NCBI GenBank assembly: GCA_003224235.1
Contig: QHYU01000149.1
Coordinates: 5,619 to 46,768 of the forward strand
Reading direction: 5' to 3'
DNA: 41,150 bases
Source of the DNA: Acidobacteriota bacterium
GTDB taxonomy: Bacteria > Acidobacteriota > Terriglobia > Acidiferrales > UBA7541
A program made the position numbers and the translations under genes. Position 1 is the first letter of the stretch, and every line of letters starts with the position of its first letter. This document shows positions 22,720 to 32,532 of the stretch, piece by piece. The notes beneath the pieces are model-generated. The model was not told where the DNA came from. It made no database searches and was given only the letters and a program-made list of their open reading frames with translations.

Positions 22720-23535
22720 CTAGAGTTTGAGTTCTTTTTCCGGCTGCTCGGGCCGCACCAACACTGGACTAGGCGAGGAATCGACCGGCAGCAGGTCCAC
22801 CGGAGCAGGGGCCGCCACCCCGGCCGGTGCGCCGTCGCCCTTCACCGGCTGCGGTTCGCCGAGCAGCACCCCGAGAATCCCCGCGCGGAGCTGCTCGAAA
22901 ACGGTTCGGGGATCCGGCGAGGCATCAATCACCTCGAACTTGTATTCCTCGGCCAACTTGTCAAATTGTTCCAGCAGCGCGCTCTGGTAGCGGCGAAAGC
23001 TATCGTACATATCCTCGCTGGCGTAAAGGTCCATACCGGACTCCCAGTAGTCGAAGCCGCGCGAGAACACCACTCGGGGAATCAAGTCGTCCACCCCGAT
23101 TCGCAGGTAGAAAGTGGCGTCAGGTTTCAGCGCGAATGCGTGGACATTACGCACCCACTCCGGGGCGAGCCCGCGCACCATGGCCCTGGCCATCAGGGAA
23201 TAGATGTAGCGGTCCGTAAGAACGACAAACCCCGCGCGCAGCGCCGGAACGATCTCGTTTTCCAGCCTGTCGGCGAAATCGGAGGCATAAAATAAGCTCA
23301 GGGTGATTCGCCCCAGGGTGTGCCCTTGCTTGGCGCGCTTGATGCCCTTTCCTGCCAGACCAGAACGAGAAAGACCAGTGTCCAGCACCGCGCGGCCCTG
23401 TTGCTCGAGCCATTCCTTCAGCAGGCTGATCTGGGTCGAGCGGCCCACCCCGTCGGTGCCTTCGATCACGATTAGTTTTCCGACCAAATCGCCGAGGTTC
23501 ATCCCCGGCAGAGCCACACCGTAGGTCTCTTTCAT
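22720..23535 (-). CDS. Thymidylate kinase-like protein with degenerate P-loop
   Basis: The protein has 271 residues with a TMK-type fold: Walker A region EGTDGVGRST (about 25-34), DRYIYSLMARA after FADRLENEIVPAL, and LRIGVDDLIPR in the sugar/LID region. The Walker A lysine is replaced by Arg32, which normally abolishes or greatly weakens phosphate binding. An extra C-terminal tail of about 50 residues is rich in Pro, Ala and Val. Its ATG overlaps the stop of the upstream kinase by four bases (ATGA), so the two are made together and may form a hetero-oligomer in which this copy is regulatory. It is not safe to call it the housekeeping dTMP kinase. Confidence 0.8.
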   Translation of the reverse strand: MKETYGVALPGMNLGDLVGKLIVIEGTDGVGRSTQISLLKEWLEQQGRAVLDTGLSRSGLAGKGIKRAKQGHTLGRITLSLFYASDFADRLENEIVPALRAGFVVLTDRYIYSLMARAMVRGLAPEWVRNVHAFALKPDATFYLRIGVDDLIPRVVFSRGFDYWESGMDLYASEDMYDSFRRYQSALLEQFDKLAEEYKFEVIDASPDPRTVFEQLRAGILGVLLGEPQPVKGDGAPAGVAAPAPVDLLPVDSSPSPVLVRPEQPEKELKL

Positions 23536-24215
23536 GGCGCCACCCGGAGCTGTTTGGCTTGGGCCAGCTTAGCCCCGACAAGTTGTCGCATCTGAGCCTG
23601 CTGCGCCTCAATTGGCAACGTCGCGTCGATCACCGTTAAACCGAATTCGGGCACTATCTTTTCATATTCTTCCAGGATGCGCGCCTGAAAGAGGCGAAAG
23701 CTCTCGTCCGGATCCACGCTCAGCTCTAGGTCCATGCCGGCCTCGTAATACTTGAAGCCGTTACGAGAGTCGTTCAGCCGCTTCATGGCTATCTCCAGTG
23801 GCACCCGAAAATAAAACGCGAGGGTAGGTTTCACGGCAAAGCTATAGAGCTCCCGAGTCCACTTCGGATCCATGCCGCGCGCCACGTCGCGGGCGAAGGC
23901 GGTGTAGATGTACCGGTCGCAGAGCACAACAGCCCCGGCCTTCAGCAGCGGGATGATGTTGCGCTCCATGCGGTCGGCAAAGTCTGTGGCATGGATGAGG
24001 CAGAAGGTCGAAGGCGTCAGCAACTTTTTCTTCTTGCCCCGTTTTGTCGTGTCTTTGACCACGAGCGAAGAGTTCCATTCGCTGAATACCACGCCGTAGC
24101 CCTCGGCTCTCAGCCACTGGTGTAGCAGCAATAACTGAGTAGACTTGCCGGAGCCGTCGATGCCCTCGACGACGAACAGTCGGCCAGGGATACGATGCTC
24201 GCCGTAGCGTTTCAA
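23532..24215 (-). CDS. Thymidylate kinase-like nucleoside monophosphate kinase
   Basis: The protein has 227 residues from a TTG start at 24215, with GGGGAT upstream; no better start exists ahead of the P-loop. Walker A is complete: VEGIDGSGKSTQ with Lys24. DRYIYTAFARDVARG matches the DRY motif of dTMP kinases (EC 2.7.4.9). Compared with typical Tmk it has an unusual basic insert, TKRGKKKKLL, after the first substrate loop. It is the first gene of tmk-like, tmk-like, CHAD-HD. Given the CHAD/SixA setting it could act on a different monophosphate or a polyphosphate-linked substrate; dTMP kinase remains the default reading. Confidence 0.82.
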   Translation of the reverse strand: MKRYGEHRIPGRLFVVEGIDGSGKSTQLLLLHQWLRAEGYGVVFSEWNSSLVVKDTTKRGKKKKLLTPSTFCLIHATDFADRMERNIIPLLKAGAVVLCDRYIYTAFARDVARGMDPKWTRELYSFAVKPTLAFYFRVPLEIAMKRLNDSRNGFKYYEAGMDLELSVDPDESFRLFQARILEEYEKIVPEFGLTVIDATLPIEAQQAQMRQLVGAKLAQAKQLRVAP

Positions 24216-24436: not shown

Positions 24437-25141
24437 TCAAGCGTCCGCGGCAGTAGGCGGACCTGGCGAGAGCTTGCCGAGGTAGAGGGCCATGCCGACA
24501 GCGGCGTTCATCCCCAGGCGTTGGAGGGCACGGACTTCACGGCGACTGCGGATCCCTCCCGCGGCGGTTATGCGCAGCCGGGTCGCACGGCGCAGCTTGC
24601 GAAACCAAGCAAGGCTGGTGCCGCGCATGGTGCCTTCCGCATCCACGTAAGTGCACAGAAATTCGGAACAGTATTTTTCGAGCTCCGGCATCACCTCTGC
24701 CGGGCGCAAAAGCAGCTTCTCTCGCCAGCCGCCCACCACGATCCGTCCTCCTTCTGTATCGAGGGCCAAGATGACCCGACGCCGGCCAATGCGCTCGACC
24801 AGGCGTCGCAAGAACGCATGATCAATTTCTCCGCGGCGGAAGGCTGCGCTACCGACAATGACCTTCTCGGCGCCCCAGCGCAGAATCTGCTGGGCGCGCG
24901 CGGGGCTGCGGATCCCGCCGCCGACACGAACCCTCGCCTTTGCGCTGCGGCAGAGCGCGCGAACCAGACGGCCGTTGTTCCCGCGCCGCATTGCGGCGTC
25001 GAGGTCGATCACATGCAGCAGCGGATAGGCTCGAAAGCGGTCGAGCAGGCCAAGAACGTCGTCCACGGCTAGCCGGCGACGCCGCCCGCGCACCAGTTGC
25101 ACCGCCTTGCCACCCTGAAGATCAATGCAGGGAACAATCAC
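24437..25141 (-). CDS. hisA: Phosphoribosylformimino-AICAR ribotide isomerase
   Basis: HisA (EC 5.3.1.16) opens the ribose ring of ProFAR in the fourth step of His synthesis. It is a 234-residue TIM barrel with catalytic Asp7 (PCIDLQGGKAVQL) and Asp128 (ALDTEGGRIVVGGW), and phosphate-binding glycine motifs RVGGGIRS and TAAGGIRS. It is the last gene of the his operon, 82 bases after hisF, the second-largest internal gap. The loop regions are Arg-rich and the protein is slightly shorter than typical (about 240-250). No terminator was recognised downstream. Confidence 0.92.
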   Translation of the reverse strand: MIVPCIDLQGGKAVQLVRGRRRRLAVDDVLGLLDRFRAYPLLHVIDLDAAMRRGNNGRLVRALCRSAKARVRVGGGIRSPARAQQILRWGAEKVIVGSAAFRRGEIDHAFLRRLVERIGRRRVILALDTEGGRIVVGGWREKLLLRPAEVMPELEKYCSEFLCTYVDAEGTMRGTSLAWFRKLRRATRLRITAAGGIRSRREVRALQRLGMNAAVGMALYLGKLSPGPPTAADA

Positions 25142-25223
25142 ACTGGCCTACCATCAAGCATCAGTGGCCTACGGATCCCACAGGTCCTCGAGCATACTGT
25201 TTCCCGAGCCCGCCGCGGCGGGC

Positions 25224-26048
25224 TCACGCGACCAAGCGCACGGGGATGCCATGTGAAGCCAGGAACTGCTTCAATTCTCCCAAGCGTTGCAGATTGTCGT
25301 GAAAGATCGAGGCAGCCAGCGCCGCGTCTGCTCGCCCTTCGGAAAACACCGCAAGAAAATCTGCGGGATTGTCCGCCCCGCCCGAAGCAATCACCGGCAC
25401 GCCTACCGCGCGCGAGACAGCCGCGGTCAAAGCGCAGTCGAAGCCGCTGCGCGTGCCGTCGCGGTCCATGGAAGTCAGCAGGATTTCTCCGGCACCGCGC
25501 GCGACTGCCTCCTGGGCCCAGGCGACTGCGTCCCGGCCGGTAGCCTCGCGGCCCCCGCGGACAAAAACCTCCCATGCCCCGCTGGCCAAAGCGCTATTGG
25601 AGGCCTGGTGGAGAGCTGCGACAGACCGGTCCGGGCATTTCGCGCAGCGTTTGGCGTCGATGGCGAGCACAACGGCTTGCGCGCCAAACTCGCGCGACAG
25701 TTCCTCGATCAGCTCAGGGCGCAGGACTGCGGCGGTATTCACAGTCAGCTTGTCGGCCCCGGCGCGAAGGATACTTCTACCCTCCTCAACCGAGCGGACG
25801 CCGCCGCCGGCGGTGAGCGGGATGGCCAGTTGTTCCGCCACTCGCCGGATAGTTTCGAGAAAGGTTCCCCGGCGGTCGCGCGAAGCGGCGATGTCCAGGA
25901 CTACGAGCTCGTCGGCACCCTCGCGATTGTAGCGTGCAGCGAGCTCGGCCGGGTCCCCGGCATCGCGCAGGTTCACGAACCGGACTCCTTTAACCACGCT
26001 GGCTCCGTCAGTGTCCAGGCATGGGATGATCCGCCGAGCAAGGCTCAT
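25224..26048 (-). CDS. hisF: Imidazole glycerol phosphate synthase cyclase subunit
   Basis: HisF (EC 4.3.2.10) forms IGP and AICAR using ammonia from HisH. The 274-residue TIM barrel has catalytic Asp12 (IPCLDTDG) and Asp131 (AIDAKR), and phosphate loops TAGGGVRS and IASGGADN. It is about 20 residues longer than usual. The excess is an insert at about 135-158 containing Cys-Ala-Lys-Cys, directly after the second catalytic Asp loop. It starts two bases after the hisH stop, with GAGGAGG inside hisH as ribosome site. It forms the synthase complex with the preceding hisH product. Confidence 0.95.
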
Positions 26049-26050
26049 CG

Positions 26051-26689
26051 TCAGGCCTCCTCCCCTGCGGTTTTCGCGCGCGCAAACTCTACGAAATTGC
26101 GCAAGACCAGCGCGCCGGGATCGCCCGACTTCTCAGGATGAAACTGCACGGCCAGCACATTTTCTTGCTCGAGCGCGGCGACGAAAGACGCGCCATGGTC
26201 ACACACCGCCACGGCGGCGTCGGGCGCATCGAGCGCCGCGAAAGAGTGCGCGAAGTAGAAGTAAGCGTCGTCCCGAACACCGCGCAGTAAAACGCTCGGG
26301 CGTAGCCGCCGCAACTGGTTCCAGCCCATGTGCGGCAGCTTGGCGGTCTTGGGAAGCGGCTGGACGCTTCCGCCGACGATTCCTAGCCCGGATTGCTTCG
26401 GATCTTCCTCACTCGAGACGAAAAGCGCCTGCAGGCCCAGGCAAATGCCCAAGAACGGTGTCCCGCGCGCGATGGCATCACGCAGAGGGCCACGCAAGCC
26501 TCGCTCTTCGAGCGTGCGCATGAGCTGGCCGAAGTGGCCCACGCCGGGCAGGACAATGGCCCGGCTGCCGGCGAGCGCTTCGGGGGTAGCTGCTCGCTGC
26601 GTCTCCACCCCCAGGCGTCCCAGCGCGCGTTCGACCGAAGGCAGGTTGCCCGCGCCGTAGTCCACCAGTGTTAGCTTCGCTGCATTCAC
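26051..26689 (-). CDS. hisH: Imidazole glycerol phosphate synthase glutaminase subunit
   Basis: This class I glutamine amidotransferase of 212 residues supplies ammonia to HisF. The triad is Cys83 (GICLGLQ), His184 and Glu186 (QFHPEKSG). VDYGAGN at the N-terminus and PGVGHFGQ are typical of HisH. The start is GTG 26689, which overlaps the hisB stop as GTGA; the frame is open further upstream but that part is antisense-like sequence inside hisB. Coupled translation with hisB and hisF is expected. Confidence 0.94.
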
Positions 26690-27273
26690 AGAAGGCCCTT
26701 CGTGCTCGGCAAAATGCGTTTCAGTTGCGCGTCGCGCGTGACCGCAAAACGCAGGGCTCGCGCAAACGCTTTGAATAGCGCTTCCACTTGATGGTGGGAC
26801 GACCGGCCGTAATGCAGCCTCAAGTGCACGTTGGCCCCCGCGGCCTGCGCAAAGGCGCGGAAGAAGTCTTCCAACAGCTCGGTCTGAAAATCCCCGACGC
26901 GGGGCGCCGCGAGCTTCCACCGGCACACGCAGTGCGCCCGCCCGCTCAAATCTATCGCTGCCGAGGCCAGGGTCTCATCCATCGGCATCAGAAAATAACC
27001 GGCGCGCAGGATCCCGCGTTTCGAGCCGAGTGCGATTCGCGTCGCTTCGCCCAACGCCAAGCCAACGTCTTCCACCGTGTGGTGCTGGTCAACGTCCAGA
27101 TCACCGCGCGCCACCACTTCCAGGTCGAGCGCGCCGTGGCGCGCCACAAGCTCCAGCATGTGATCCAGAAAACGAATCCCGGTGCGCACCCGCGCCCGGC
27201 CTCGCCCGTCCAGATTAAGCCGCAGGCGGATATCGGTCTCGGTGGTGGTTCGTCGCAATTGCGCTTTTCTCAT
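26686..27273 (-). CDS. hisB: Imidazoleglycerol-phosphate dehydratase (monofunctional)
   Basis: This dehydratase (EC 4.2.1.19) has 195 residues. Conserved metal-binding motifs are FLDHMLELVARHG, DQHHTVEDVGLALG and SSHHQVEALFKAFARAL. There is no fused N-terminal histidinol-phosphatase, unlike E. coli HisB. ATG 27273 is the natural start for the family (RTTTETDI follows); the frame runs back to a TTG at 27372. The 108-base gap to the upstream HAD gene is the largest inside the operon. Its stop overlaps the hisH GTG. Confidence 0.94.
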   Translation of the reverse strand: MRKAQLRRTTTETDIRLRLNLDGRGRARVRTGIRFLDHMLELVARHGALDLEVVARGDLDVDQHHTVEDVGLALGEATRIALGSKRGILRAGYFLMPMDETLASAAIDLSGRAHCVCRWKLAAPRVGDFQTELLEDFFRAFAQAAGANVHLRLHYGRSSHHQVEALFKAFARALRFAVTRDAQLKRILPSTKGLL

Positions 27274-27381
27274 TCCCACTGTCCAATCCGTTGTGCCGCG
27301 GTTGCGGCGCTCCGTGGTGGGGGGCTTGTCCCACCCGATCGGTTTTTTTCGGCCCGCGCCAGGGAGCCGCAAGCGGCGCCT

Positions 27382-28071
27382 CTACGCTTGCCAGACCTTC
27401 TCCAGTTCGAGCACGCTGCCGATGATCGTGCTGGCGCCGAGCCGGCGCAGGCCGGCAGCCCGGTACTTCCGCGCGGAGCTATTGCGCGGCAGCACGCCGA
27501 CAAATGGGATGCCCGCACCTTGCGCGGCCAGCGCGTCGTCTATGTTATCGCCGAGGTACACGGCGACGTTCGGCTCGCGGCCGTCGAGAATCCGCAGCAG
27601 ACCTTCGGGGTCAGGCTTGGGACGCTTGACCTCGCTGGTGGTGACGATTCGCCGGAAATAGGGTTCCACCCGGAATGCCTCCAGCGTGCGTTGCGTCTCG
27701 CGGCGCGTGCGTCCCGTAAACACTGCGAGCTCGGCGCGCTGCGACCATCGCCGCAGCCAGGCGCGCGGCGCCAGCCACCGCTCGAGCGCCACATTGCCGT
27801 CGCTGTTCGACCCCCAGTAGAACTGCTCGAACTGCTGTTTAACCTCGGAGTAGCTCACTTTCCGGCCCAGGGTGCGGATCCAGTCGGTGGTGAGCTTCCA
27901 ATCGTCGTTGTAGCCAGGGCGGCTCTTCCAGCGATGGATCTCAGCGAGCCTGACGCGGCGGCCAGTGAAGTGTCGCACCGTCTGCACGATTGTGCGGTGG
28001 TAGGAGCCGCGCGCATCCACCAGGACACCGTCCACATCGAAAATGATGATTTGGGGCCTGAGCCTCACCAT
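27382..28071 (-). CDS. HAD-superfamily hydrolase, candidate histidinol-phosphatase
   Basis: This is a 229-residue HAD phosphatase. Motif I is FDVDGVLVD (nucleophile Asp12, acid Asp14), motif II has Thr in VFTGRT, motif III Lys in VKRPKPDP, and motif IV is YLGDNIDD. A helical cap lies between motifs I and II (subfamily IA-like). It overlaps hisC by seven bases and precedes monofunctional hisB. The operon otherwise lacks the histidinol-phosphate phosphatase step (EC 3.1.3.15; no PHP-type gene or HisB fusion), so this enzyme is the best candidate. That is inference from position; other phosphoglycolate-phosphatase-like substrates remain possible. Confidence 0.8.
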   Translation of the reverse strand: MVRLRPQIIIFDVDGVLVDARGSYHRTIVQTVRHFTGRRVRLAEIHRWKSRPGYNDDWKLTTDWIRTLGRKVSYSEVKQQFEQFYWGSNSDGNVALERWLAPRAWLRRWSQRAELAVFTGRTRRETQRTLEAFRVEPYFRRIVTTSEVKRPKPDPEGLLRILDGREPNVAVYLGDNIDDALAAQGAGIPFVGVLPRNSSARKYRAAGLRRLGASTIIGSVLELEKVWQA

Positions 28072-29132
28072 AGTCTCTTGAGCGCTCCAATCAATCTTTG
28101 TGTTTGCGCGCGTGTGCCCACGGTGATCCGCACATAGCCGGCGCGCCCGAAGTCGCTCGACCGGTCGCGCAGCAGGATTCCCTGTCGCTCAAGGCCCATG
28201 AGCAGCCGCGGTGCGCGAACGCCGAAATCGGCGAGCAGGAAATTCCCGGCGCTTGGAAACACCGGGATCTTCATTCGCTCGAGCGCCCCGGCCAGAGCCT
28301 GCTTGCTGCGGCTCACTTCCCGCGCATAATTCCGGACGAAGCGCGCGTCGCGCACTGCCGCTTCTGCTGCGACCAGAGCGGCCGTGTTGACCGGAAAAGG
28401 CGAGCAGGCCCTGCGCATTACGTCCATCACCTCCTGGCTGGCGAACAAGCAGCCCAGGCGTAGCCCGGCGAGCCCAGCGGCTTTGGAAAACGTCCGCACC
28501 ACGACCAGGTTGCCGAAGCGGCGGATCCAGGGCAGGACGGTGGCACGCGAGAACTCGTAGTAGGCTTCGTCCACCACCACTAGTGTTTGCGGAGCGCCCG
28601 CAAGAATTCTGCGCAACGATTCCAGGGCCAGCAGTGTGCCGGTGGGATTGTTCGGATTGGCAAGGAACAGCACACGCGGGCGACGCCGCAGCGCCTGCAA
28701 GGCCTGATCCAGAGGGAAGCGCATCGAGTCGTCGTAGCGCAAGGCAACCACGCGTGCGCCGGCAAGCTCGGCGTAGAAGCGGTACATGGTAAACGTCGGC
28801 TCGGCCAACAGGACGGCGCTTCCCTTCTCCACATAGGTGTCCGCGATCAGGCGCAAGGCGTCGTCGGCACCGTTGGCGAGCACCAGCTCCGCCGGCCGCA
28901 CCCGGAAGAAGCGCGCCAGGCGACGCGTCGTCGCTTCGTATTCGGGATACATAGCCAGGTTCTCGCGAGTCATTCGGGCCAGCGCGCGGCGCACCGCAGG
29001 CGAGCAGCCGATGGTGTTCTCGTTGAAGTCCAGGCGCAGCTTGCCGGCGCGGCCTTCGATCGGCGCATGGTATTCACCCAGGCGCTTCACCGTGAGGCGC
29101 ACGGGCACTTCCGATTTCACGCTCCGAATCAC
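28065..29132 (-). CDS. hisC: Histidinol-phosphate aminotransferase
   Basis: This fold-type I PLP aminotransferase (EC 2.6.1.9) has 355 residues. It converts imidazole-acetol phosphate and glutamate to histidinol phosphate. Motifs are LDFNENTIG, ANGADDALRLI, FLANPNNPTGT, VVDEAYYEF, and the PLP-lysine region RTFSKAAGLAGLRLG. GTG 29132 overlaps the hisD stop (GTGA), and the end overlaps the HAD gene by seven bases. The length is normal for the family. Confidence 0.94.
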   Translation of the reverse strand: MIRSVKSEVPVRLTVKRLGEYHAPIEGRAGKLRLDFNENTIGCSPAVRRALARMTRENLAMYPEYEATTRRLARFFRVRPAELVLANGADDALRLIADTYVEKGSAVLLAEPTFTMYRFYAELAGARVVALRYDDSMRFPLDQALQALRRRPRVLFLANPNNPTGTLLALESLRRILAGAPQTLVVVDEAYYEFSRATVLPWIRRFGNLVVVRTFSKAAGLAGLRLGCLFASQEVMDVMRRACSPFPVNTAALVAAEAAVRDARFVRNYAREVSRSKQALAGALERMKIPVFPSAGNFLLADFGVRAPRLLMGLERQGILLRDRSSDFGRAGYVRITVGTRAQTQRLIGALKRLW

Positions 29133-30382
29133 CGGCGCACCTCTACGGCCCAGGCATGCGCCGCCAGATTCTCCGCTTCAGCCAGCGTTGCCACCACCGG
29201 GGCCAGCCGGCGCAAGCCCTTGCGGGATATCCGCTGAACGCTCGAGCACTTCACGAAATCGCTCGCGGAAAGCCCGCCACGGGAGCGCGCCCACCCCGCG
29301 GTGGGCAGGACGTGGTTTGCTCCACTGGCGTAATCGCCGATAGGTTGCGCGCTCCACGGGCCGAGAAAAACGCTGCCGGCCGAGCGGATCTTCGCGAGCA
29401 GCGCCGGCTCGCCACCTGGCAGTGCGAGATGTTCGGGAGCAAACCGATTCGCAAAGCGCGCTGCAACCTCGAGGTCCGGGGCCAGCAGGATGGCGCCGTT
29501 TCTCTTGAGCGATCGCCAGGCTGGGTTCGACGCCGGAAAGGCGCGGAGCTGGCGCGCCACTTCTTCGCGCACAGCTCGAGCCAGGCGCGGCGAGGTGGTG
29601 ACGAAGAGCGCCACAGCGTCGGCATCATGCTCGGCCTGGGCGATTAAGTCAGCGGCAATCAGGCGGGGTTTCCCTCGCGCAGCCACGATCAACACCTCGG
29701 TTGGCCCGGCCGCCAAGTCGATCGCGCACTCGGCGCTGACCAGTCGCTTCGCCGCCGTGACATAGCGGTTGCCGGGACCGAAAATCTTGTCCACTTGCGG
29801 AAACGACTCAGTGCCGTAGGCCATCGCACCTATGGCTTGCGCTCCGCCAACGCGGGCAATCTGGTGCACGCCAAGCAGATCGGCCGCAGCCAGGAATGCC
29901 GGGTTGGGCCGTGGACAGGTAACAACGATCTGGCGCACGCCAGCCACTTGGGCGGGCAGCGTAGTCATCAGCAAGGTTGAGACCAGGGAGAATCGCCCGC
30001 CAGGCACATAGCAGCCGATGACCTCGAGTGGCTCAACCCTCTGGCCAACATGGACGCCGGGCTCGACCTCCAGGTTCCACGGGCGCGGCATCTGGCGTTC
30101 AGCCACGCGCCGGATGTTTCGCACGGCGTGCTCAACCGCATGCAGAAACTTCCGGCTGGCCTCACGCCGCGCCGCCTCGCATTCGCCCTTGGCGACCCAC
30201 AGCGTGGCCGGCTCGAGACGAAGGCCGTCCAGGCGCCGCGTCCAGCGTAGCACCGCCGCATCGCCGCGACGCCGCACGTCAGCAAGGATGCGCGCGGCGA
30301 CGCCTTCCGCAGCCAGCTCACGCCGGCGGCGGTCCGCCAGCAGCTTTTCTGCATTCGCTTTGGTCAGCTCGATTAGTTTCAT
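29129..30382 (-). CDS. hisD: Histidinol dehydrogenase
   Basis: This zinc- and NAD-dependent enzyme (EC 1.1.1.23) oxidises histidinol to histidine in the last two steps. It has 417 residues. Family motifs are CYVPGGRFSLVSTLLM, GGAQAIGAMAYGT, FGPGNRYVTAAKR, AGPTEVLI, the zinc ligands in IAQAEHDADA, catalytic RFAPEHLAL, and GDYASGANHVLPTAGWAR. ATG 30382 shares one base with the hisG stop (TGATG); GTG 30385 is an equally possible start. The end overlaps hisC by four bases. Confidence 0.95.
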   Translation of the reverse strand: MKLIELTKANAEKLLADRRRRELAAEGVAARILADVRRRGDAAVLRWTRRLDGLRLEPATLWVAKGECEAARREASRKFLHAVEHAVRNIRRVAERQMPRPWNLEVEPGVHVGQRVEPLEVIGCYVPGGRFSLVSTLLMTTLPAQVAGVRQIVVTCPRPNPAFLAAADLLGVHQIARVGGAQAIGAMAYGTESFPQVDKIFGPGNRYVTAAKRLVSAECAIDLAAGPTEVLIVAARGKPRLIAADLIAQAEHDADAVALFVTTSPRLARAVREEVARQLRAFPASNPAWRSLKRNGAILLAPDLEVAARFANRFAPEHLALPGGEPALLAKIRSAGSVFLGPWSAQPIGDYASGANHVLPTAGWARSRGGLSASDFVKCSSVQRISRKGLRRLAPVVATLAEAENLAAHAWAVEVRR

Positions 30383-31254
30383 CACACCACAATCTTGTTC
30401 AGCGGATATTCGACGATTCCCTGCGCCTGCGCGGCTTTCAATCGCGGGATGATCTGGCGCACAACCTCTTCATCCACAATCGTGTTCACAGCTACCCAGT
30501 CGGGATCGCTCAACGCCGAGATGGTGGGGTTCTTCAGCGCCGGCAGGACAGCCAGAACGCCCGCCAGGTTTTCCTTGCGCACGTTGAGCATCAGCCCGAC
30601 CTTGTTGTAGGCCGCGATGGCGCCTTCGAGCAGCAGAACCAGGTTGGAGATTTTCTCGCGCGCCCAGGGCTCTTGCCATGCTGCGCGGCTGGCGATAAAC
30701 ATGGTTGCCGATTCGAGCACCGTATCCACAATGCGCAGGTGATGAGCGCGAAGCGACGCCCCGGTCTCCGTGACCTCGACAATCGCGTCCGCGAGCTGCG
30801 GCACTTTCACTTCTGTGGCGCCCCAGGAGAACTCTACCCGAGCGCTAACGCCGTGGCGCGCCAGATAATTCTGCGTGAGTCGGACGACCTCGGTGGCGAT
30901 GACTTTGCCTTCCAGATCCTTCACCGATTGCACCGGGGCATCCTCCGGCACCGCCAGGACCCAGCGCACGCGCGCGAGTCTCTGCTTGGCGTAGACCAAT
31001 TCGGCGACTTCGACAACGCTGGCTTGGGTCTCGAGGATCCAGTCTTTTCCCGTGATGCCGGCATCGAGCGCGCCCGATTCGACGTAGCGCGCCATCTCCT
31101 GCGCGCGGACCATCGTGCAGTGGATCTCGGGGTCGTCGATCGTCGGGAAATAGCTGCGGGCGTTGACGGTGATGCGCCAGCCAGCCCGCGCAAACAGTTG
31201 TAGGGTTGCGTCCTGCAAGCTGCCCTTCGGTATGCCGAGGCGAAGCGGCTTCAT
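30382..31254 (-). CDS. hisG: ATP phosphoribosyltransferase, long form
   Basis: HisG (EC 2.4.2.17) catalyses the committed step of His synthesis. At 290 residues it is the long form, with its own ACT-like C-terminal regulatory domain (about 210-290, [23 protein letters not shown] and the terminal [12 protein letters not shown]), so it should be feedback-inhibited by histidine and needs no HisZ. N-terminal motifs are [11 protein letters not shown] and [14 protein letters not shown]; the PRPP region includes [18 protein letters not shown] 31254 overlaps the hisI stop (ATGA). Further upstream open frame is hisI antisense-like and not used. Confidence 0.95.
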
Positions 31255-31640
31255 GGCTTCTGCGCGTCCCCGTAGACGGCGCCAGGGTCGAATGCGCGCT
31301 CGGCAATCACCGCCACGCTGCCGTCGCGCTCCAGCCGGCGAAAGAAACATGAGCGGTAGCCTTCATGACACACGCCGGGGCCCAGGGGTTCCACCCGCAC
31401 CAGGAGCGTGTCCGCGTCGCAGTCCACGCGCAACTCGCGCACCCGCAGCCGGTGGCCGCTCTGCTCCCCTTTACGCCAAAGCTTCTGGCGCGAACGGCTG
31501 TAAAAGGCGGCTTCTCCGGTCTCGAGTGTCGCCGCGAGGGCCTCGGCGTTCATGAAGCCAACCATCAGGACTTCATCGCTCGTAGCGTCTTGCACTACAA
31601 CTGGTATCAGCCCGCCCTGTTTGCTGAAATCGAGTTCCAT
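31251..31640 (-). CDS. hisI: Phosphoribosyl-AMP cyclohydrolase (monofunctional)
   Basis: This zinc enzyme (EC 3.5.4.19) opens the purine ring of PR-AMP. It has 129 residues. Signature motifs are [43 protein letters not shown], and the zinc cysteines in [12 protein letters not shown]. The PR-ATP pyrophosphohydrolase domain (HisE), often fused or adjacent, is absent here. It is the first structural gene of the operon, about 180 bases after the attenuator, with GGAGGAG ten bases before its ATG. Confidence 0.95.
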
Positions 31641-31819
31641 GCGCGTCGGTCTCCTCCAACCCGACAGAACTCCACCTTCTCTCCGCTCAGCCCAGTTCTC
31701 TCACTGACACCGGCACGTGCCTTAGGGCCGGAATCTTCGATCGCCCCGCAGCGGCGGGCTCGGTTTGACAACGTCCCCGCAGAACCGAATCCATGAAGGC
31801 AGCGTGCAACACTTCCCCC

Positions 31820-31858
31820 AAAACAAAAAGCCCGCTGTCGCTTACCGCGCCAGCGGGC
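31820..31858 (-). terminator. Attenuator terminator of the his operon leader
   Basis: On the minus strand GCCCGCTG (31858-31851) pairs perfectly with CAGCGGGC (31837-31830). Inside, CGC and GCG can add three more pairs around a GGTAA loop after one mismatch. TTTTTGTTTT follows. It lies 23 bases after the His-rich leader peptide stop and about 180 bases before hisI, so it can only act as a leader terminator. Confidence 0.88.
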
Positions 31859-31944
31859 CAAGGAGTGCAACCGAAAGTTTGCTACCCAGGCCTCCGCGGG
31901 CACGGTGCTCCGCTGTGGTGGTGATGATGCTGGCGATGTGCCCG
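31820..31944 (-). promoter_or_regulatory. Transcription attenuator with alternative RNA arms
   Basis: Arm 1 CGGGCAC (31944-31938, within leader codons 4-6) pairs perfectly with arm 2 GTGCCCG (31903-31897). The end of arm 2, GCGG-A-GGCC (about 31897-31889), can pair imperfectly with GGCCCGC (31859-31853), the 5' arm of the terminator. Arms 3 and 4 form the terminator. This is the classic 1:2, 2:3, 3:4 switch. The pairings are read by eye and not energy-computed. Confidence 0.75.
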
Positions 31945-31953
31945 AGGCGCCAT
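31882..31953 (-). CDS. hisL: His operon leader peptide
   Basis: This 23-codon frame starts ATG GCG CCT and contains one His codon, then Arg-Gln, then five consecutive His codons (CAT CAT CAC CAC CAC), ending at TAG 31884-31882. Six His in eight codons upstream of a his operon terminator matches the logic of E. coli hisL. No ribosome binding site is seen. The predicted -10 box ends 10 bases before the A of the ATG, so the message would be almost leaderless. Ribosome stalling at the His run would alter pairing of the downstream arms and let transcription continue into hisI. Confidence 0.85.
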   Translation of the reverse strand: MAPRAHRQHHHHHSGAPCPRRPG

Positions 31954-31963
31954 TTCGCCGGAA

Positions 31964-31992
31964 ACTGTAGCGAAAACGGCCTTGCACGTCAA
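31964..31992 (-). promoter_or_regulatory. Sigma-70 promoter of the his operon
   Basis: On the minus strand TTGACG (31992-31987) and TACAGT (31969-31964) are separated by exactly 17 bases, immediately before the leader peptide. Predicted transcription start is near 31957, three to five bases before the leader ATG. Confidence 0.75.
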
Positions 31993-32532
31993 GCGCGCTG
32001 GTCAGGAGCCCCTGTCCTGTATTTCTGTTGAAAGAGCGGTCGAGAGTTTTCCGGGTCATGGGTCTCCTGTGTGATGCATCAGCATCCATTGCTTTGAAAT
32101 CGTCCCACTGGAATTCCGGCGCCTCCACACCATATCGACGAAGACCATCTTCGCGTCGAATCGCGGCAGAACGCAAAGAAAGGGGGACCCCCGCTTTTTT
32201 TGTAACTGTTGATTTTGCGAGGCTTTAAGTCCAATGAATCTGTAAGAGCACATTCTAAAACACTTGCGGTAGCATTTTTCCGTAAGTGCGCATCCTAAAG
32301 GAGTTACGAGCTTTCGCGAGCAGCAGAGCATTGCACCTCCAGAGAGCCGTGAGGCCCTAACCGCAGCAGCATTATCCTTGGTCTGTTGCTTCCAGGTTGC
32401 GCATTCTTCGCATTTTTGGACGCCGGTCGGGATCAAACCAGGAGATTCCTCGATTCTTCGGGCCGCGATGTTGACCACCGGGCTAAACACTGCTAACGCG
32501 TGAAAAATACCTCCCAAATAAAATACTGAACC
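31993..32532. other. Intergenic region between the his operon and the ECF42 cluster
   Basis: This is divergent intergenic space of about 540 bases. Open frames on both strands (for example 32056-32676 minus) have no motifs, Cys-rich and biased composition, and no ribosome sites, so none is called. A G5-A-C5 palindrome followed by T7 near 32181-32201 has no room for a loop and is not a credible terminator. Confidence 0.45.

Follow-up and report, generated by a model that had tools for sequence, protein, structure and literature searches.

The his operon of the window, the whole 41,150-nt stretch of DNA analyzed here, is preceded by an element that is very probably a ribosome-mediated transcription attenuator sensing charged His-tRNA, a reading that draws on the sequence and on modeled RNA folds. 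It is carried by the parts themselves, their conservation among relatives, compensatory changes, fold predictions and a positional promoter signal. The proposed mechanism is that of the his attenuator of Escherichia coli and Salmonella and is textbook; what is new is the phylum, the sequence family, to which the known model is blind, and the predicted leaderless start, and we therefore count the element as a new form. The initial annotation had already proposed a his operon attenuator with a His-rich leader peptide, an interpretation that conservation, compensatory changes and the antiterminator now support; it had missed that the leader begins only a few nucleotides from the predicted 5′ end with no Shine–Dalgarno sequence, as well as the spread of the element through the class and into other classes of Acidobacteriota.

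The element lies on the minus strand ahead of a nine-gene operon, whose order, assigned by NCBIfam matches for each gene, is hisI-hisG-hisD-hisC-HAD hydrolase-hisB-hisH-hisF-hisA (Table 1); the listed hisG frame begins upstream of the likely hisG start, overlapping hisI. The HAD-family hydrolase between hisC and hisB (27382–28071, minus strand) is a candidate histidinol-phosphate phosphatase, and no hisE was seen in the operon. Two adjoining thymidylate-kinase-like genes (22720–24215, minus strand) come after hisA, the first of which (23532–24215) scores barely above the dTMP kinase cut-off, and the second of which was assigned by eye from its sequence. The genome to which the window belongs comprises 4.57 Mb in 237 contigs, and judged by hisI, the named relatives closest to it are Acidobacteria "gp2" MAGs along with other Terriglobia.

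Table 1. Features of the putative his attenuator and the operon downstream of it, in coordinates of the window.
Feature	Coordinates	Strand	Basis or remark
Sigma-70-type promoter, TTGACG-17-TACAGT	31964..31992	−	Sequence; conserved in the family set
His leader frame, 23 codons + TAG	31882..31953	−	Sequence; His-rich frame kept in relatives
Arm 1, CGGGCAC, leader codons 4–6	31938..31944	−	Pairs with 31903–31897
Arm 2, CCGTGCCCGCGG, leader codons 17–20	31894..31905	−	Part 31903–31897 pairs with arm 1; whole arm pairs with arm 3
Arm 3, CCGCTGGCGCGG	31845..31856	−	Pairs with arm 2 (antiterminator); overlaps the terminator 5′ arm
Intrinsic terminator (3:4), GCCCGCTG...CAGCGGGC + TTTTT	31825..31858	−	−23.5 kcal/mol
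Dispersed-repeat copy in the terminator–hisI spacer, outside the switch	31724..31773	−	Seven more genomic places
hisI, first structural gene	31251..31640	−	ATG at 31640; NCBIfam PRK00051, 150 bits versus cut-off of 126
Remaining operon: hisG, hisD, hisC, HAD hydrolase, hisB, hisH, hisF, hisA	24437..31350	−	NCBIfam matches

The leader frame, MAPRAHRQHHHHHSGAPCPRRPG, runs from an ATG at 31953 to a TAG stop at 31884–31882, carries His at codons 6 and 9 to 13 and is rich in codons for the amino acid that the operon produces; this 23-codon frame and the TTGACG-17-TACAGT promoter ahead of it had both been read correctly in the initial annotation and are present on the minus strand. A longer in-frame leader was considered and rejected, the sole ATG, GTG or TTG available for it being a TTG at 31992 that coincides with the −35 element; an in-frame stop lies upstream at 32004. 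When the region was dinucleotide-shuffled 5,000 times, a comparable His-rich short frame arose in none of the shuffles. For the comparison with relatives, we used 104 distinct hisI upstream regions and called a leader wherever four or more of seven codons in a short frame specify His. By this measure, a His-rich leader is found upstream of hisI in 94% of the regions, versus 0.1% in shuffles and 0% at control places farther upstream of hisI or on the opposite strand. As the leaders were collected by a His-rich search, the His content of the set is partly selected, a bias that the chance controls address. Conserved residues at the C-terminal end of the leaders (PCPRR, PLRCA and RRA) are best explained as what arm 2 happens to encode.

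The promoter consists of a −35 element, TTGACG (31992–31987), a 17-nt spacer and a −10 element, TACAGT (31969–31964). Within the set from the window's family, TTGAC occurs at −41 to −35 in 38 of 38 leaders and a TAnnnT hexamer ends 6 to 12 nt ahead of the leader start in 37 of 38; across all leaders, such a hexamer ends in this interval in 95 of 100 cases, versus 3.2% at control positions, and the best-scoring −10 ends 8 nt ahead of the start in 37 of 100. A TGn extended −10 is found in 50 of the 62 leaders outside the window's family set. Two loci (L066 and L083) keep an extended −10 element upstream of hisI with no recognizable His-rich leader, and attenuation may have been lost there. The same −10 scan carried out ahead of hisI gave no peak, and Shine–Dalgarno sequences before the leader frames are not above chance. 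Transcription usually starts about 7 nt past the −10 element. In the window, the −10 element ends 10 nt ahead of the ATG, which predicts a 5′ region of 3 to 4 nt, a transcript start at about 31957 and thus a leader frame that is essentially leaderless; for the leaders generally, the usual spacing between −10 and start predicts a 5′ region of some 0 to 5 nt. For three Acidobacteria genomes, a published estimate is that 13% of genes are predicted to be leaderless (PMC3160421).

Three helices can be drawn in the leader RNA, namely a pause helix (1:2), an antiterminator (2:3) and a terminator (3:4), and these are mutually exclusive because arm 2 is common to the first two and arm 3 to the last two. 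The perfect 7-bp pairing singled out in the initial annotation is that of CGGGCAC (31944–31938) with GTGCCCG (31903–31897), and the hairpin with a T-run that it placed ahead of the nine-gene operon pairs GCCCGCTG with CAGCGGGC (31858–31851 and 31837–31830), followed by TTTTT at 31829–31825; both readings hold, and the antiterminator, which had been left undefined, is present and conserved. We compared pairing in an alignment of 39 relatives (A1) with slid controls, and changes on both sides of a pair with shuffles. In A1, helix 1:2 is paired in 86% of cells (25–58% in slid controls) with 19 cells altered on both sides, helix 2:3 in 84% (31–51%) with 10 such cells spread over five pairs, and helix 3:4 in 97% (33–49%) with 20 such cells; in all three, the both-side changes exceed those in shuffles. 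A more distant set of 36, mainly Bryobacterales-like (A2), has the same arm order in another sequence (arm 1, CCGTCGC; arm 2, GCGACGGGC; arm 3, GCCCGCCGC), and here helices 1:2, 2:3 and 3:4 are paired in 79, 87 and 97% of cells, far above slid controls. Covariation beyond shuffles is found in A2 only in helix 1:2 and not in helices 2:3 and 3:4, because the columns of the latter two are almost invariant. The three helices, which exclude one another, are thus conserved, with weaker evidence for 2:3 in the distant set, and the His codons and hairpins, on whose conservation in close relatives the initial annotation had let its reading stand or fall, are kept in close and distant relatives alike, with compensatory changes.

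An intrinsic terminator stands between the leader and the first gene, and one of −15 kcal/mol or better follows the leader in 93% of the regions that have a leader, versus 1.9% in shuffles; nearly all relatives retain its core, CCCGC..GCGGG. Taken alone, the minimum free energy of the leader in the window does not stand out (z = −1.3), and the evidence therefore lies in the arrangement and its conservation, not in raw folding energy. RNAalifold on the whole alignment recovered the terminator alone, which is expected where alternative helices exclude each other, and each helix was therefore defined and counted on its own.

The hairpin could in principle terminate an upstream unit constitutively, with the His frame a chance occurrence or an unrelated small gene and the hisI promoter farther down, and the spacer between terminator and hisI in the window, at about 180 nt, is long and might hold a promoter. 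We consider this very unlikely, since that spacer contains a dispersed-repeat copy in the window and is short in most relatives (from leader stop to hisI, 244 nt in the window versus 78 nt in a same-genus relative), and since the order and spacing of leader and terminator stay fixed wherever the two recur, and all three alternative helices are conserved. The repeat copy (31773–31724) is GC-rich and palindromic around GATCGAAGATTCCGGCCCTGCCGGAA, and its core matches 10 genomic places with at most one mismatch and 28 with at most two.

To model stalling, we let the ribosome cover 12 nt beyond the codon being read and folded the RNA before the terminator 3′ arm. The predicted antiterminator amounts to about −33 to −35 kcal/mol when the ribosome stands at any of codons 4 to 12 (including His codons 6 and 9–12), −24 kcal/mol for a stall at codon 13 and −6 kcal/mol at the stop codon; the same procedure applied to the E. 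coli his leader gives a change from about −29 to −18 kcal/mol. By fold prediction, then, a stall frees the antiterminator and a ribosome at the stop codon blocks it. At equilibrium, the full-length RNA is predicted to favor the terminator even with a stalled ribosome, as it does for E. coli his, and the switch must therefore be kinetic, with the order of synthesis mattering.

For events in the cell, we infer where the RNA begins, that the leader is translated and that stalling and termination occur, as follows. RNA polymerase would initiate at about 31957, which would leave the leader AUG a few nucleotides from the 5′ end, so that a ribosome could load without a Shine–Dalgarno sequence. When histidine is short, this ribosome would stall at His codon 6 or at codons 9 to 13, masking arm 1 and leaving arm 2 free to pair with arm 3 as the antiterminator, and the polymerase would continue into hisI-A. 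When histidine is plentiful, the ribosome would get to the stop codon and mask arm 2, arms 3 and 4 would pair, and transcription would stop at the T-run; in the absence of a ribosome, helices 1:2 and 3:4 would form and transcription would likewise end. That the leader governs translation of hisI and not its transcription, by hiding the ribosome-binding site, as some leader-peptide systems elsewhere in bacteria work at translation (PMC9413887), is less probable still, because the hairpin carries an immediate T-run in 96% of cases and lies ahead of a hisI Shine–Dalgarno sequence that is itself normal (67% with four or more matching bases).

The putative attenuator resembles the enterobacterial his attenuator (hisL, RF00514) in its consecutive His codons, the 1:2/2:3/3:4 alternation, the intrinsic terminator, the position before the his operon and the predicted response to stall position. 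It differs from hisL in that there is no sequence–structure match, the first gene is hisI and not hisG, and a −10 element stands directly ahead of the ATG, where the E. coli hisL sequence examined has none. The RF00514 His_leader model placed 0 of 101 class genomes over its gathering cut-off, with the E. coli control positive; an Rfam search of 20 loci returned 0 matches, and a T-box covariance model gave no match in the window region or in the 20 loci. Just weak, subthreshold Rfam matches over the terminator hairpin were obtained for the window region, and an Rfam identity was rejected.

Outside the Proteobacteria, the literature proposes His leader peptides in some Firmicutes (PMC9413887, PMC2965389), including His attenuators in the Bacillus cereus group, Peptostreptococcaceae and Erysipelotrichales (PMC9413887). 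Those of the latter study likewise combine a His-rich leader, a terminator and an antiterminator found by comparative genomics, a likeness at the level of description; they are confined to Firmicutes, and Acidobacteria are unmentioned there. In Sinorhizobium meliloti, the trpL RNA begins at the ATG of the leader frame and the leader peptide is leaderless (PMC7298713); the leader frame described here is predicted to be leaderless in the same way, but the trpL attenuator concerns Trp, not His, and belongs to another phylum. Corynebacterium and mycobacteria, lineages rich in leaderless mRNAs, have leader frames at ilvB, leuA and trpE as well as Cys-rich frames (PMC3890552, PMC4633059), which are similarly small, amino-acid-rich and placed before biosynthesis genes but specify different amino acids. 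In C. glutamicum, hisD lacks a His leader frame, and its control has instead been ascribed tentatively to a T-box (PMC3896937). In a 2010 survey, almost no predicted attenuator of Acidobacteria had an assigned function (PMC2965389), and our reading would assign one, in a large group of soil bacteria. The initial annotation knew of no description in an Acidobacteriota-like his operon, and the literature that we searched holds no description of a his attenuator for Acidobacteriota; Lopatovskaya et al. 2010 (Mol Biol 44:128) may contain an earlier prediction. To a specialist, the mechanism is expected, and the phylum-wide, apparently leaderless form is what is new and easy to test: in this His-sensing attenuator, the ribosome seems to enter at the 5′ end with no need for a Shine–Dalgarno sequence, which opens the coupling of leaderless initiation to attenuation to direct tests.

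Covariance models built from A1 and A2 and searched against 250 genomes of the window's class match 136 and 141 of them, respectively, over half in each case. Within the window's family, all 18 genomes that carry hisI have the element, and none of the 11 genomes lacking hisI does (18/0/0/11; Fisher p = 3e-8, ignoring shared ancestry, by reason of which these counts are not independent events); in a second family (f11), the element is found in 31 of 31 hisI-bearing genomes, 23 to 94 nt ahead of the hisI match. Most of the checked genomes of the window's family without hisI are also without hisD, and several relatives in which neither is detectable therefore look like histidine auxotrophs. Genomes G003, G007, G010, G012, G014, G015 and G037, some of them 97 to 99% complete, are cases in which hisI and hisD were not detected and the leader was not found.

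A role of the His run as a peptide, in metal binding or as a trans-acting peptide or small RNA in the manner of peTrpL/rnTrpL, with attenuation secondary or absent, has a precedent in the leaderless trpL of S. meliloti, the peptide and RNA of which are both trans-acting (PMC7298713), but is just as improbable as translational control, since the His run differs among relatives in length and interruptions whereas the RNA arms at either end are conserved, and since the window's family has the element only where hisI occurs. More speculatively, and in our view unlikely, this could be the phylum's own, independently evolved attenuator built on leaderless translation, with a short terminated transcript and a poly-His peptide that act in trans like rnTrpL and peTrpL of S. 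meliloti.

The attenuator reading extends to other classes of Acidobacteriota, where His leaders with a −10-like element occupy the same place ahead of hisI in several families (examples are L125, L127, L129, L133, L144, L148 and L151). Model R2 detects some of these leaders; where it matches weakly at places other than hisI (E near 1e-4), it has probably picked up terminator hairpins, and these matches were not counted as evidence. This phylogenetic span and the compensatory changes suffice for a new RNA family. At trpE and ilvB in the window's relatives, no convincing leader of a similar kind was found. Finally, three MAG contigs titled Ferrithrix or Actinobacteria (L109, L113 and L115), reflecting wrong titles, transfer or a wider spread, harbor a His leader of this kind that begins with GTG and has a TATnGT box 6 to 7 nt ahead of it.
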